From assembly GCA_030620115.1 (NCBI GenBank), contig JAUXFG010000002.1:1-64000 (forward strand): a stretch of DNA of 64,000 bases, given 5' to 3'. The translations under genes were made by a program, and so were the position numbers. This document shows, in pieces, positions 57,738 through 62,782 of this stretch; position 1 is the first letter of the stretch, and the number at the start of each line of letters is the position of its first letter. Under the pieces are notes generated by a model, which had not been told where the DNA came from, searched no databases, and saw only the letters and a program-made list of their open reading frames with translations. Origin of the DNA: Candidatus Fermentibacterota bacterium. GTDB lineage: Bacteria > JAFGKV01.

Positions 57738-57869
57738 ATGGCGCAAGCACGTGTGATCAGTTTCGCAATATTGGAGGTCCCCCATTTCTCACCAGCTTGG
57801 CTCACAAGACAGCCCAGATGTCAGGGCCTTCCATCGGGTCGAGTACATAGCAGAAGAGGCATACGATGA
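57738..57869 (+). CDS. Possible 43-codon leader reading frame coupled to the next gene
   Basis: ATG at 57738 with AAGGAAG eight bases upstream, reading MAQARVISFAILEVPHFSPA and stopping with a TGA (57867-57869) that overlaps the ATG of the next gene (ATGA). No homologue recognised. Good ribosome site and overlap argue for translation, perhaps as a coupling leader, but composition is not clearly coding. Confidence 0.3.
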   Translation: MAQARVISFAILEVPHFSPAWLTRQPRCQGLPSGRVHSRRGIR

Positions 57870-59479
57870 TTAGACAATTCTTGGCTGGACCTAGCGCACT
57901 TTTGGTGCTCCTCCTCGCCTGCGCGAGCACGACCGCGGATCGTCTGCCGGTAGGCGAGGCATATTCCGACACCCTGCAACTCGCCGTAAGGCTTTCTGAG
58001 GAACGCGACCTTGATGGATGCGTCCAGGAGCTCCAGCGGATCGTGGCACTGCCCTCGTCCCCCATGGTGAAGATCCAGGCGTACTGGAGACTGTATCTTG
58101 TGCATCGCGATAGAGGAGAAAGCCTGGACGCATTGCAGGCGCTTGTTTCCTGTCTTGAACGAGACGCCGCACATCGATCCAGCATATACGGGAGAGCACG
58201 ATCGAGTCTGGGCCCCGCAGTGGTGGATGCCCTGGCGGCGGATATCAGCTGGGCCACGATCTCGAATCTGCTCGGCGGCATCGAGGAAGTGGAGCTAACC
58301 CTCGATCTCGTCTCCTATTTGACCGAAAACGAAGACTGTTATCCCGCGTCGATATTGCTCGGTAAGCTCGCACGCCAAGGACTCGACGCAGGGGATGAGC
58401 AAAGAAGAACGCGATTGGCGAAGAAAGTGATGCGCTGCATGGAGAAGACCAGACCAACGCTGGCTCTGGTGGTACCGCTCACAGGCGACTATGCGGAGTA
58501 TGGATCGAACCTCGCGCGCGGAGCGGAACTCGCATTGTTGGATTCAGCTTCCGCCGGCACTCTCATTCTGGAGAAAATCGATTCCGGTTCCGATCCGGTT
58601 GAAGCCACATTGGCCATGAGTCGATTGGCAAGGTCACCGCACGTCATTGCGGTCATCGGCCCGCTGCAGAGCAGAGCGGCCACGGGAGCCGCAATGGCAG
58701 TGACCCAGGGGGAGCTACCCAATCTTGTTCCCCTTCCTGCCCCACAGGGTCTATCCAGATTCGGCAAATGGGTCTTCCAGAGTGCCGTGCCGATTCAGGC
58801 TGAAGCGAGAACCGTGGCCAAGTATGCCATGATTCACGGAGGAATATCGAGGTTCGCCATCCTGTATCCTTCCCACGCCACAGGAGAGCGTGCCATGGAT
58901 GCCTTCAAGAGCCAGGTATACGACCTTGGCGGCGAGGTTGTGGCCATCGAGCGCTACAGCGAGGACCGAGATACTGATTTCCGTACACAGATCGTGAATA
59001 TCAAGCGGGCATCCCCCCAGGCGCTTTTCGTGCCCGGGCAGCCAAGGGAACTGATTCAGATTGCCCGACAGGTCGCCTTCTATGAACTCGAATGCCAACT
59101 CCTTGGCACCGATGGTTGGAGCTCAACCGAGGTTATTGCCCGGGGTGGACGACTGGTTGAGGGTGTCATCTTCTCCGACCTTGCCGGCATGGAGAAAAAC
59201 ACCTACGCGGTTGACATCTTCAGAGCAACTTATCAGGAACGGTTTGCACGGGATCCCGATCACTATGCCTACATCGGATTCGACCTTGCCTCCTGCGTGA
59301 GAAAGGCGGTTGAGAACGGGAGAACCACCAGAGACGGCCTGCGGCGATACCTCGAAGGTCTCGGGCCTATCATGCGGGTTTCAGGGGTCCTCAGCTGGCG
59401 CGACGAAGACACTCCCGGCGCGATTCAGTTGCTTACCATCGCCGATGGTCTGGTGGTACCACTGCCCATGGGGTCGTAG
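57866..59479 (+). CDS. Penicillin-binding-protein-activator-like lipoprotein (periplasmic binding protein type I fold)
   Basis: 537 residues. Lipoprotein signal with Cys19 (GPSALLVLLLACAST), an N-terminal helical/TPR-like domain of about 170 residues, then a type I periplasmic-binding fold (TLALVVPLTGDYAEYGSNLARGAELALLDS; HVIAVIGPLQSRAATGAAM; FAILYPSHATGERAMDAFKSQVYDLGGEVV). This two-part layout is that of LpoA/LppC-type activators of class A penicillin-binding proteins, which reach through peptidoglycan from the outer membrane. A plain branched-chain amino-acid-binding protein is the alternative, but no transporter genes are nearby and the neighbours (secA, lptD) are envelope genes. Confidence 0.78.
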   Translation: MIRQFLAGPSALLVLLLACASTTADRLPVGEAYSDTLQLAVRLSEERDLDGCVQELQRIVALPSSPMVKIQAYWRLYLVHRDRGESLDALQALVSCLERDAAHRSSIYGRARSSLGPAVVDALAADISWATISNLLGGIEEVELTLDLVSYLTENEDCYPASILLGKLARQGLDAGDEQRRTRLAKKVMRCMEKTRPTLALVVPLTGDYAEYGSNLARGAELALLDSASAGTLILEKIDSGSDPVEATLAMSRLARSPHVIAVIGPLQSRAATGAAMAVTQGELPNLVPLPAPQGLSRFGKWVFQSAVPIQAEARTVAKYAMIHGGISRFAILYPSHATGERAMDAFKSQVYDLGGEVVAIERYSEDRDTDFRTQIVNIKRASPQALFVPGQPRELIQIARQVAFYELECQLLGTDGWSSTEVIARGGRLVEGVIFSDLAGMEKNTYAVDIFRATYQERFARDPDHYAYIGFDLASCVRKAVENGRTTRDGLRRYLEGLGPIMRVSGVLSWRDEDTPGAIQLLTIADGLVVPLPMGS

Positions 59480-59491
59480 GAGCGCGCTATT
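59478..59491 (+). promoter_or_regulatory. Candidate lptD ribosome site and AUU start codon
   Basis: AGGAG (59478-59482) overlaps the upstream stop, and six bases later an ATT (59489-59491) opens an in-frame extension of 17 codons to the first lptD ATG. The extension supplies RATDQGFHWGVLVWIA, completing a normal signal peptide. No ATG, GTG or TTG exists in that stretch. Confidence 0.45.
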
Positions 59492-59539
59492 CGGGCCACT
59501 GATCAAGGCTTTCACTGGGGCGTTCTTGTCTGGATCGCC

Positions 59540-62500
59540 ATGATGATTCTCTTTTGCTCTCCCCTTTCAGCCACCCACCGCGCATCCACCAAGAAATCCA
59601 TTGCCTATCGAGCCGACGAATGCGTCACCAATCTGAAGGAAGGGATCACGACGCTGCGGCGGAACGTCAGGGCGGTGGCAAAGCAGTGGACCTTGACGGC
59701 GGCATGGGGTACGTATCGAACGACTCCTGAACTACTCCGATTGGGTGGCGACGTGCAGGCCACGTGGCACGGAGACTCGGCATGGGCCCAACAGGCGAGG
59801 ATCGTGCCTGCCGATTCTCTGGTTGAGCTTCTTCATCGAGTTCGGCTTCTCCGGGAAGATGGATCCCGTCTTCTATGCTCCCGTTTGTTGTTCAGTGGCC
59901 TCACGGATGTCACAGAGCTCACAGGCCCACTCTCCCTCGTCGACTCCACGGGCTCCTATGAGGCCAGAGCGGACACTGGTTGGTTCTTCGAACAGCAGCA
60001 TATCCTTCACCTGGCACGATCCTGTACTCTATTGATACAAGCATCGGAATCCGATCCTGTGACCGTTCTGTCTGACTCAGCACTCATCGAACAACCTTCG
60101 AATCGACTCGTGGCCAGTGGCAGGGTCATCATAACGGGCCCCGAGATACACGGAACGTGCCAGGATTTGGAGTATGACGGCAGCGAAGACCGCGTCATTC
60201 TCACCGGCGATCCTTCGCTTCAGAGCGGACAATTCCTCTGCACTGCACAGAGGGTGGTACTGCAGCGGCGTGACGGCGCCTTCAGCCAAATGGTGCTGGA
60301 GGGAGACGCTTGGGCGGCTCAACAGGAGGTCAATGCCGACTCTGCCTCCTGGGACCAAACGTGGGGCGACAGAATGGTGCTCTGGCTCCGTGACCGCAAA
60401 CCCTCGTCCATGTTGGTTACGGGGAATGCCAGGGCCATTCATGCCGTGGCGGACTCAAGCGGTCGTCACGTGGGGATCAATGATTCCCACGGGGACAGCC
60501 TTTTCCTGGAACTGGAGGATCAAGACCTGGCATATCTCAGGATCTCCGGTTCGGCTAATGGCACCTATGTCTCGAAACACGGCCATACCGACATGCCAGA
60601 TGAATCGACGGACTATTCGGCGGACATGATATCCTTCGCCAAAGAGGATCACCTTCTGACTATGAAAGGCAATGCCGATCTCCAGAGCGGTACACTCCGG
60701 CTCACTGCATCGGAGGTCAGGTTCTCTCTCTTTTCCAAGGAAATGGTGGCACTGGAGAATGCTGTTCTGAGAGACGGCGAACAAGAGGTCTCCGGCAAGC
60801 GCATGAGCTTCAGTACGATCAAACGGCAAGGCGTAGTCACGAACGGCATAACCCAATTCGAGAGCGCCTTCTCATTCGGCACACAGGTTGCCCGCGTGGA
60901 TGAACGATCGCTGGACATCAGACATGGGCAGTTCACCTCATGCGATGAGGATCATCCGCACTTCTACATCACCTCGCCCAGAATGCGCGTCACCATGGAC
61001 GACAAGGTCGTATGCCGGCCGTTGATCATGTGGGTACACGATGTCCCCGTCTTCTGGCTCCCCTACTCGGTTTTCCCCATTCGAAGAGGTCGACATTCCG
61101 GCTTCCTCGTTCCTCACTTCAGTGCCCGCAACATCCTGGGCTTGGAGGGTTCGCACACGAGTATCGAGGACCTTGGATACTACTTCGTGCTGGGTGACTA
61201 TGGGGATCTGAATCTATCTCTTGACTGGGAAGAGGATCTCGGGTGGACTGCCAAGGCCAATGCGCGCTATGCACTGCGCTACCGTATCAGACAAGGCGAT
61301 ATCACGTTCAACTATGCGCGACGGGATAACATATCCCAATGGATAATCCACCATGTCCACGATCAGTATCTTCCCCATGGGTGGCGGCTCAAGGCAGACA
61401 TCAATGCCACGCGCAGCAAGGAATATATTGATCAAGAAACTCCGGACATCGAGGACCGCCTCAATCAACAAGCCGGGTTCAAATCCGCCTTGACTCTGAA
61501 CAAGAATCTCCCTGGCTGGAGCCTGCGGATGAGCTTGAGGAGGGACCAGAAATGGACTACCACCCAGCCGGAAGGGGAAGAGGAATCCACGACTGAGACC
61601 ATCACCACCATGCTTCCGGAGATAGTGATCTCCCGTCCCAGCAAACGGCTCTTCTCTCCACAAGCTCCCACAGTGCCATGGTTCAAGGAGCTCTATGCAT
61701 CACTGAGTTCCTCGTTCAAGAACCAGACCATACAAGGAAGCGATGAGGTAACCGAGGATCACTCGATAGGAACGCGGCACTCCACATCGTTGCGATGGCA
61801 ACTGCCCAAGATACTGCGGAGAGTAAGCCTCTCGCCCAGCGCCTCATACAAGGAGACATGGGTTCATCTGGGAAAAGAGCCTGAACAAGGAGAGCGGATG
61901 AAGTGGGATCGTGTCGGTGTGCTCTCCAACATCAGCGTGTCCGCATCAACCAAGCTCTACGGGCTTCTCGAGCCACCCATTGGTCCGGTAGTGGCGCTCC
62001 GCCACGTGGTCACGCCGAGCCTCGGCTACAGCTATACGCCGGACTGGTTCACCTATGGATGGGACTTCAGGACAGGCAAGTTCAGCCAGGACGATGATCA
62101 GCCGTACAGCGACGCTGGCTTTGGTGTTTCGTCTACCAAATCGAGGCGGCTCAACCTGGGCCTCGGCAATCTATTTCAGGCAAAGCTCAAGAGGGGAGAG
62201 GATGTCGTAAGAAAGGATAACCTGGCCAGCGTGAACTTCTCCACGAGCTATGACTTCCAACGCAAGGAAAATGGGGAGGATCCGTGGTCATCCTTGCGCA
62301 CAAGGCTGGACTTCTCCCCCGCGCGGGCTCTTTCGTGGAATCTCACCCTGAACCACGATCCAAATGAGCGCCTGGGATTTCTTTCCCTCACGTCGTCGGC
62401 AATGCTCCGCTTGAACGGTGGTTGGGAACGGCCGTCCATGCTCGGTAGCGGGGGTATGCCGCTGGAGCCATTTCGCTATAAGTGGAATCTCACGGCGAGG

Positions 62501-62782
62501 CATTCCTGGAGCCATTCCAGAGGCTCAGCCAACGATCCACAGACGGTGATGCTCAATGGCAGCCTTGCCCCCACCAAGGGATGGAACGTGAGCGCCAACC
62601 TGGGCTACGACATCACCAATAACAGGGTGATGACCAAAGGTTTGGCAATTACGCGTGATTTGCACTGCTGGCAGATGAACTTCTCGTGGTCCAAATCGGA
62701 AACACATTGGAACTATCGCTTCAAGATTTTCGTGAAGGCCTATCCCGAGTCAATCTTCATTAAACACCATGAGAGACAGTGA
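59540..62782 (+). CDS. lptD: LPS-assembly outer membrane protein LptD
   Basis: 1080 residues from the first ATG (59540); with the AUU start at 59489 it would be 1097. LptD is the outer-membrane barrel that, with LptE, inserts LPS into the outer leaflet. The N-terminal half is a long OstA/LptA-type beta-jellyroll (SNRLVASGRVIITGPEIHGTCQDLEYDGSEDRVILTGDPSL; DLQSGTLRLTASEVRFSLFSKEMVALENAVL). Then comes the LptD signature PRMRVTMDDKVVCRPLIMWVHDVPVFWLPYSVFPIRRGRHSGFLVP and a barrel of alternating strands. The extra N-terminal jellyroll makes it longer than E. coli LptD (about 780). The two cysteine pairs of the enterobacterial protein are not conserved. Starting at the ATG leaves an 11-residue signal peptide, unusually short. 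Confidence 0.9.
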   Translation: MMILFCSPLSATHRASTKKSIAYRADECVTNLKEGITTLRRNVRAVAKQWTLTAAWGTYRTTPELLRLGGDVQATWHGDSAWAQQARIVPADSLVELLHRVRLLREDGSRLLCSRLLFSGLTDVTELTGPLSLVDSTGSYEARADTGWFFEQQHILHLARSCTLLIQASESDPVTVLSDSALIEQPSNRLVASGRVIITGPEIHGTCQDLEYDGSEDRVILTGDPSLQSGQFLCTAQRVVLQRRDGAFSQMVLEGDAWAAQQEVNADSASWDQTWGDRMVLWLRDRKPSSMLVTGNARAIHAVADSSGRHVGINDSHGDSLFLELEDQDLAYLRISGSANGTYVSKHGHTDMPDESTDYSADMISFAKEDHLLTMKGNADLQSGTLRLTASEVRFSLFSKEMVALENAVLRDGEQEVSGKRMSFSTIKRQGVVTNGITQFESAFSFGTQVARVDERSLDIRHGQFTSCDEDHPHFYITSPRMRVTMDDKVVCRPLIMWVHDVPVFWLPYSVFPIRRGRHSGFLVPHFSARNILGLEGSHTSIEDLGYYFVLGDYGDLNLSLDWEEDLGWTAKANARYALRYRIRQGDITFNYARRDNISQWIIHHVHDQYLPHGWRLKADINATRSKEYIDQETPDIEDRLNQQAGFKSALTLNKNLPGWSLRMSLRRDQKWTTTQPEGEEESTTETITTMLPEIVISRPSKRLFSPQAPTVPWFKELYASLSSSFKNQTIQGSDEVTEDHSIGTRHSTSLRWQLPKILRRVSLSPSASYKETWVHLGKEPEQGERMKWDRVGVLSNISVSASTKLYGLLEPPIGPVVALRHVVTPSLGYSYTPDWFTYGWDFRTGKFSQDDDQPYSDAGFGVSSTKSRRLNLGLGNLFQAKLKRGEDVVRKDNLASVNFSTSYDFQRKENGEDPWSSLRTRLDFSPARALSWNLTLNHDPNERLGFLSLTSSAMLRLNGGWERPSMLGSGGMPLEPFRYKWNLTARHSWSHSRGSANDPQTVMLNGSLAPTKGWNVSANLGYDITNNRVMTKGLAITRDLHCWQMNFSWSKSETHWNYRFKIFVKAYPESIFIKHHERQ

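Follow-up and report, generated by a model that had tools for sequence, protein, structure and literature searches.

Very few start codons are AUU, with one switch in 61,358 AUG starts (PMC5622118). The infC gene of E. coli starts at ATT, and sigR of Streptomyces starts at GTC and is repressed there by IF3 (PMC5472188). An AUU start of pcnB from E. coli is attributed to Binns and Masters 2002, as cited in a later paper (PMC13009471). According to that paper the AUU start of cvfC1 from S. aureus has about 10% of the AUG activity in a reporter (PMC13009471). A literature search for lptD with a non-canonical start found no paper.

We analyzed a window of 64,000 nucleotides from a Candidatus Fermentibacterota genome (contig JAUXFG010000002.1, positions 1 to 64,000), in which the best reading is that AUU is the start codon of lptD, with a probability of roughly 60% in our estimate. 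If real, this start would join the type known from infC, pcnB, and cvfC1. With infC it would share an AUU behind an SD site, with pcnB (as far as the citing paper describes it) a gene outside the translation machinery and weak AUU initiation, with cvfC1 an AUU with a good SD, and with sigR a non-canonical start missed by annotation. There are also differences. The infC gene of this lineage starts at ATG, and lptD encodes no translation factor and forms no feedback loop. The pcnB start was, by the same citation, tested experimentally, whereas that of lptD is known from sequence and lies directly behind another gene, with the SD over the stop codon of that gene. The cvfC1 gene has an extended SD and a conserved codon, in contrast to the five-base SD of lptD. 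Finally, the sigR start is conserved and shown to be IF3-repressed, whereas the lptD AUU is known from the sequence of one genome.

Table 1. Features of the lptD locus, with positions in the window.
Feature	Position	Strand	Basis
Upstream gene, periplasmic-binding/LppC-like lipoprotein, ends TAG	57866..59479	+	Peripla_BP_6 7.4e-35, LppC 3.5e-09
SD-like AGGAG over upstream stop TAG (59477-59479)	59478..59482	+	duplex -6.5 kcal/mol for ATT
ATT, proposed lptD start codon, spacing 6 (CGCGCT)	59489..59491	+	layout, in-frame reading
Proposed complete signal sequence MRATDQGFHWGVLVWIAMMILFCSPLSA	59489..59572	+	cleavage site inferred
ATG, first canonical start; weak SD and a signal sequence cut to 11 residues	59540..59542	+	SD energy, N-terminal sequence
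lptD, 1097 codons from ATT plus stop	59489..62782	+	Pfam

The product of the lptD reading frame (Table 1) belongs to LptD by its Pfam matches, LptD_2 (6.8e-59) and LptD_N (1.5e-09); LptD is also matched in part by NCBIfam, with scores below the NCBIfam cut-offs, and the frame gives the sole LptD match of the genome. Behind the upstream TAG the frame reads GAG CGC GCT ATT CGG GCC ACT GAT CAA GGC TTT CAC TGG GGC GTT CTT GTC TGG ATC GCC ATG ATG, with the ATT and the first ATG in frame at a distance of 51 nt. No ATG, GTG, or TTG occurs in the lptD frame between the upstream stop and ATG 59540, and no canonical start was found in any frame 0–16 nt behind the AGGAG. An SD at suitable spacing without a canonical codon in frame there is what an AUU start calls for; alone, it is not beyond chance. 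The earlier note had described the AGGAG, the ATT six bases on, the frame lacking ATG, GTG, and TTG, and the residues FHWGVLVWIA directly before the first ATG, and the sequence and its translation confirm each of these details.

The AUU start is the best-supported reading mainly because of the signal peptide, together with the lack of an alternative start. Translated from ATG 59540, the protein would begin with MMILFCSPLSATHRAS, which lacks a charged n-region and would probably be cleaved after 11 residues, whereas the earliest cleavage site among 227 signal-like N termini (core of at least 10 residues), a set found by a simple home-made rule rather than SignalP and including membrane anchors, is at residue 14. 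From the ATT the cleavage site falls at about residue 28–29, as compared to 11 from the ATG, and the translation reads as an ordinary signal sequence, in agreement with the earlier claims that the first ATG leaves an 11-residue signal and that the extension completes a normal one. The ten residues before the ATG are so hydrophobic that only 1.2% of random open 10-mers match them, and equally hydrophobic ten residues precede the start in only two of 264 genes, one being lptD and the other a gene without a signal sequence. By codon usage the 17-codon extension scores +1.2, which falls within the coding range (median +1.9) and, among 46 upstream stretches presumed to be non-coding (median −1.5), corresponds to roughly the 90th percentile. 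The truncated signal sequence from the ATG and the hydrophobic extension thus indicate, indirectly, that the protein needs an upstream start.

SD strength was computed by pairing the sequence in front of each candidate start with the standard anti-SD, which was assumed since the 16S gene was not found in the assembly; the first sample covered 1.05 Mb of the genome with 619 genes called by codon usage. The genome clearly uses SD sites, with a median of −6.9 kcal/mol for the chosen starts, a value flattered by their having been picked partly by SD, versus −2.2 at random positions. At ATT 59489 the strength is −6.5 kcal/mol, close to that of a typical start in the genome and matched at 6.8% of random positions; among all codons lying before a first canonical start, 8.3% have an SD-like site at least as good. 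No enrichment of ATT was seen behind equally good SD-like sites (8/103 vs 8.2% for other codons), and a general excess of ATT behind SD sites was rejected on these counts. The combination of SD and ATT is therefore a common coincidence in this genome and unconvincing by itself. For CTG the enrichment behind SD sites is weak and only suggestive, with 20 of 126 in the first set (p = 0.004, uncorrected) and 37 of 220 in a larger set with a looser threshold (p = 0.045), where some other codons ranked higher. The mRNA structure at ATT 59489 and at ATG 59540 is in the normal range, with nothing unusual at either start.

The locus was compared with those of two other genomes of the phylum, both from the same family, in which LptD is 52% identical. 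In both relatives' loci (L002, L003) the C-terminal end of the upstream lipoprotein gene is kept, the lptD frame stays open as far as the signal sequence, and only a start located well before the hydrophobic core yields such a sequence. In one relative (L003) the lptD start is a GTG that shares bases with the upstream stop (GTGA), and in the other the first candidate, an ATG, follows the upstream stop at a distance of 27 nt. AUU is thus not conserved at 52% identity. The earlier note would have abandoned the AUU start if relatives began at the internal ATG with similarly short signals; neither does so, their canonical starts lying on the upstream stop or a little way behind it. Among other genome contigs, a search for close LptD relatives returned distant ones only (22–28%).

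A survey of 1.69 Mb (about 41% of the genome, 1102 called genes) for coding-like or homologous sequence extending upstream of the first canonical codon gave two further candidates for a non-canonical start, in each case a CTG that follows an AGGAG with a spacing of six bases. The gene of a ROK-family kinase (L125:7442-8401) has AGGAG-TGATCT-CTG-CTG-AGC, with the AGGAG at the upstream stop (L125 7434-7535). From the CTG the ROK profile starts at residue 10, with a DLGGT motif, and the first canonical codon is at about residue 31; the relative of this gene in G001 has an ATG available. A CUG start is probable here, and the candidate is fairly firm. In an AllH-like gene (L066:10122-11012), which reads TAGGAG-CAAACC-CTG (L066 10119-10214), Pfam AllH covers the C-terminal part only. 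Its N-terminal part, into which the first canonical ATG would cut, we take to be conserved or homologous, and a CUG start is possible, as a weaker candidate than ROK. In the prfA gene (release factor 1, L075:8002-9105) no canonical start precedes the conserved PCRF domain, and G-runs lie close by (L075 8002-8175); the gene may contain an indel or use a non-canonical start. With the ROK, AllH-like, and prfA cases, genuine non-canonical starts become more likely, but the same cases reveal that some starts in the draft are doubtful. On the minus strand of L119 (about 1060-1280 of the reverse complement), the signal-like RKTFIISLALVLSLLATS of a TPR-like protein reaches back beyond the first canonical codon, and no clear SD accompanies it; this is another doubtful start. 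An M3-family peptidase (L121 15555-16753, minus strand) was rejected as a start-codon case, its two pieces being a broken gene or an assembly fault.

A rival reading is that 59489 really carries a canonical start, with the ATT due to an error of assembly or to a mutation private to the sampled strain. The assembly is a draft of 296 contigs, the ATT was seen in this one draft genome, the lptD starts of both relatives are canonical, and prfA, on another contig beside G-runs, hints at occasional indels or errors. A single substitution would give the same picture as a real ATT. However, a frame-shifting indel would be insufficient, because no frame has a canonical codon near the AGGAG, so that a change at exactly codon 59489 would be needed, and the substitution rate would presumably have to be high to produce as many as three such genes among about 1100. 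We consider an error or private mutation fairly unlikely. Translation from ATG 59540 or 59543, with a very short signal sequence and an upstream hydrophobic frame that arose by chance, appears rather improbable. The SD of ATG 59540 is −3.1, weaker than those of about 92% of the chosen starts, and this codon sits 60 nt behind the upstream stop; its signal would be shorter than all 227 sampled, and the extension before it is hydrophobic and coding-like. It is nevertheless the first canonical codon, 14-residue signals are apparent in a few genes of the same genome, and SD plus ATT arises by chance about as often as observed. Very unlikely is the use of another upstream codon, such as ATC 59534 with an SD of −5.3, which would add two residues only, or readthrough of the in-frame TAG 59477, which would give a lipoprotein-LptD fusion from the frame common to the upstream ORF and lptD, a shared frame that is not conserved given the GTGA overlap in L003.

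If lptD does start at AUU, ribosomes that terminate at TAG 59477 or are drawn in by the overlapping AGGAG would initiate nine bases on, at AUU 59489, by means of the ordinary initiator tRNA. The product would have a 28-residue signal sequence, and RATDQGFHWGVLVWIA would belong to the part cleaved off. The AUU would probably just weaken initiation, which could be tolerable for a low-abundance outer-membrane protein. We infer all three elements, namely initiation at AUU, its coupling to the upstream gene, and its weakness, and an AUU start, if real, most probably initiates weakly and by coupling instead of acting as a switch. The genome carries a tRNA-Met(CAT) with an initiator-type GGGCTCATAACCC anticodon arm, and an altered initiator tRNA was rejected in view of this normal-looking tRNA.

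Gene finders ignore non-canonical starts, and N termini are misannotated as a consequence, in this case the signal peptide of an outer-membrane assembly protein. One unverified case matters little. If several genes of one genome use AUU or CUG with AGGAG-N6, start-codon rules would vary among lineages more than assumed. It is conceivable, and in our view unlikely, that AUU and CUG starts are better tolerated in this little-known lineage than in model bacteria, with an AGGAG-N6 overlapping or abutting the upstream stop and terminating ribosomes re-initiating weakly, as lptD, the ROK kinase, and the AllH-like gene would exemplify.

The earlier note had called control of lptD by initiation fidelity conceivable. 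Control by IF3, as known for infC or sigR, would be a special case of the AUU start and not exclusive of it. IF3 represses AUU and GUC starts in other bacteria (PMC5472188), SD-less re-initiation is also repressible by IF3 (PMC2268962), and the IF3 gene is present in the genome. Such control is nonetheless highly improbable and was rejected as unsupported, since ATG is the infC start codon here as well as in the two relatives, the lptD starts of the relatives are ATG or GTG, and no logic ties LptD to IF3. In each of the three genomes the infC ATG is at the same place, with no in-frame ATT, ATC, or ATA between it and the upstream stop; the infC of this organism does not start non-canonically, and the AUU feedback of the classical kind is thus missing. 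A conserved AAGGAGAGGAT precedes the infC ATG by about 14–17 bases in all three genomes (L054, L055, and L056, near position 1456 on the coding strand), an unusually long spacing.
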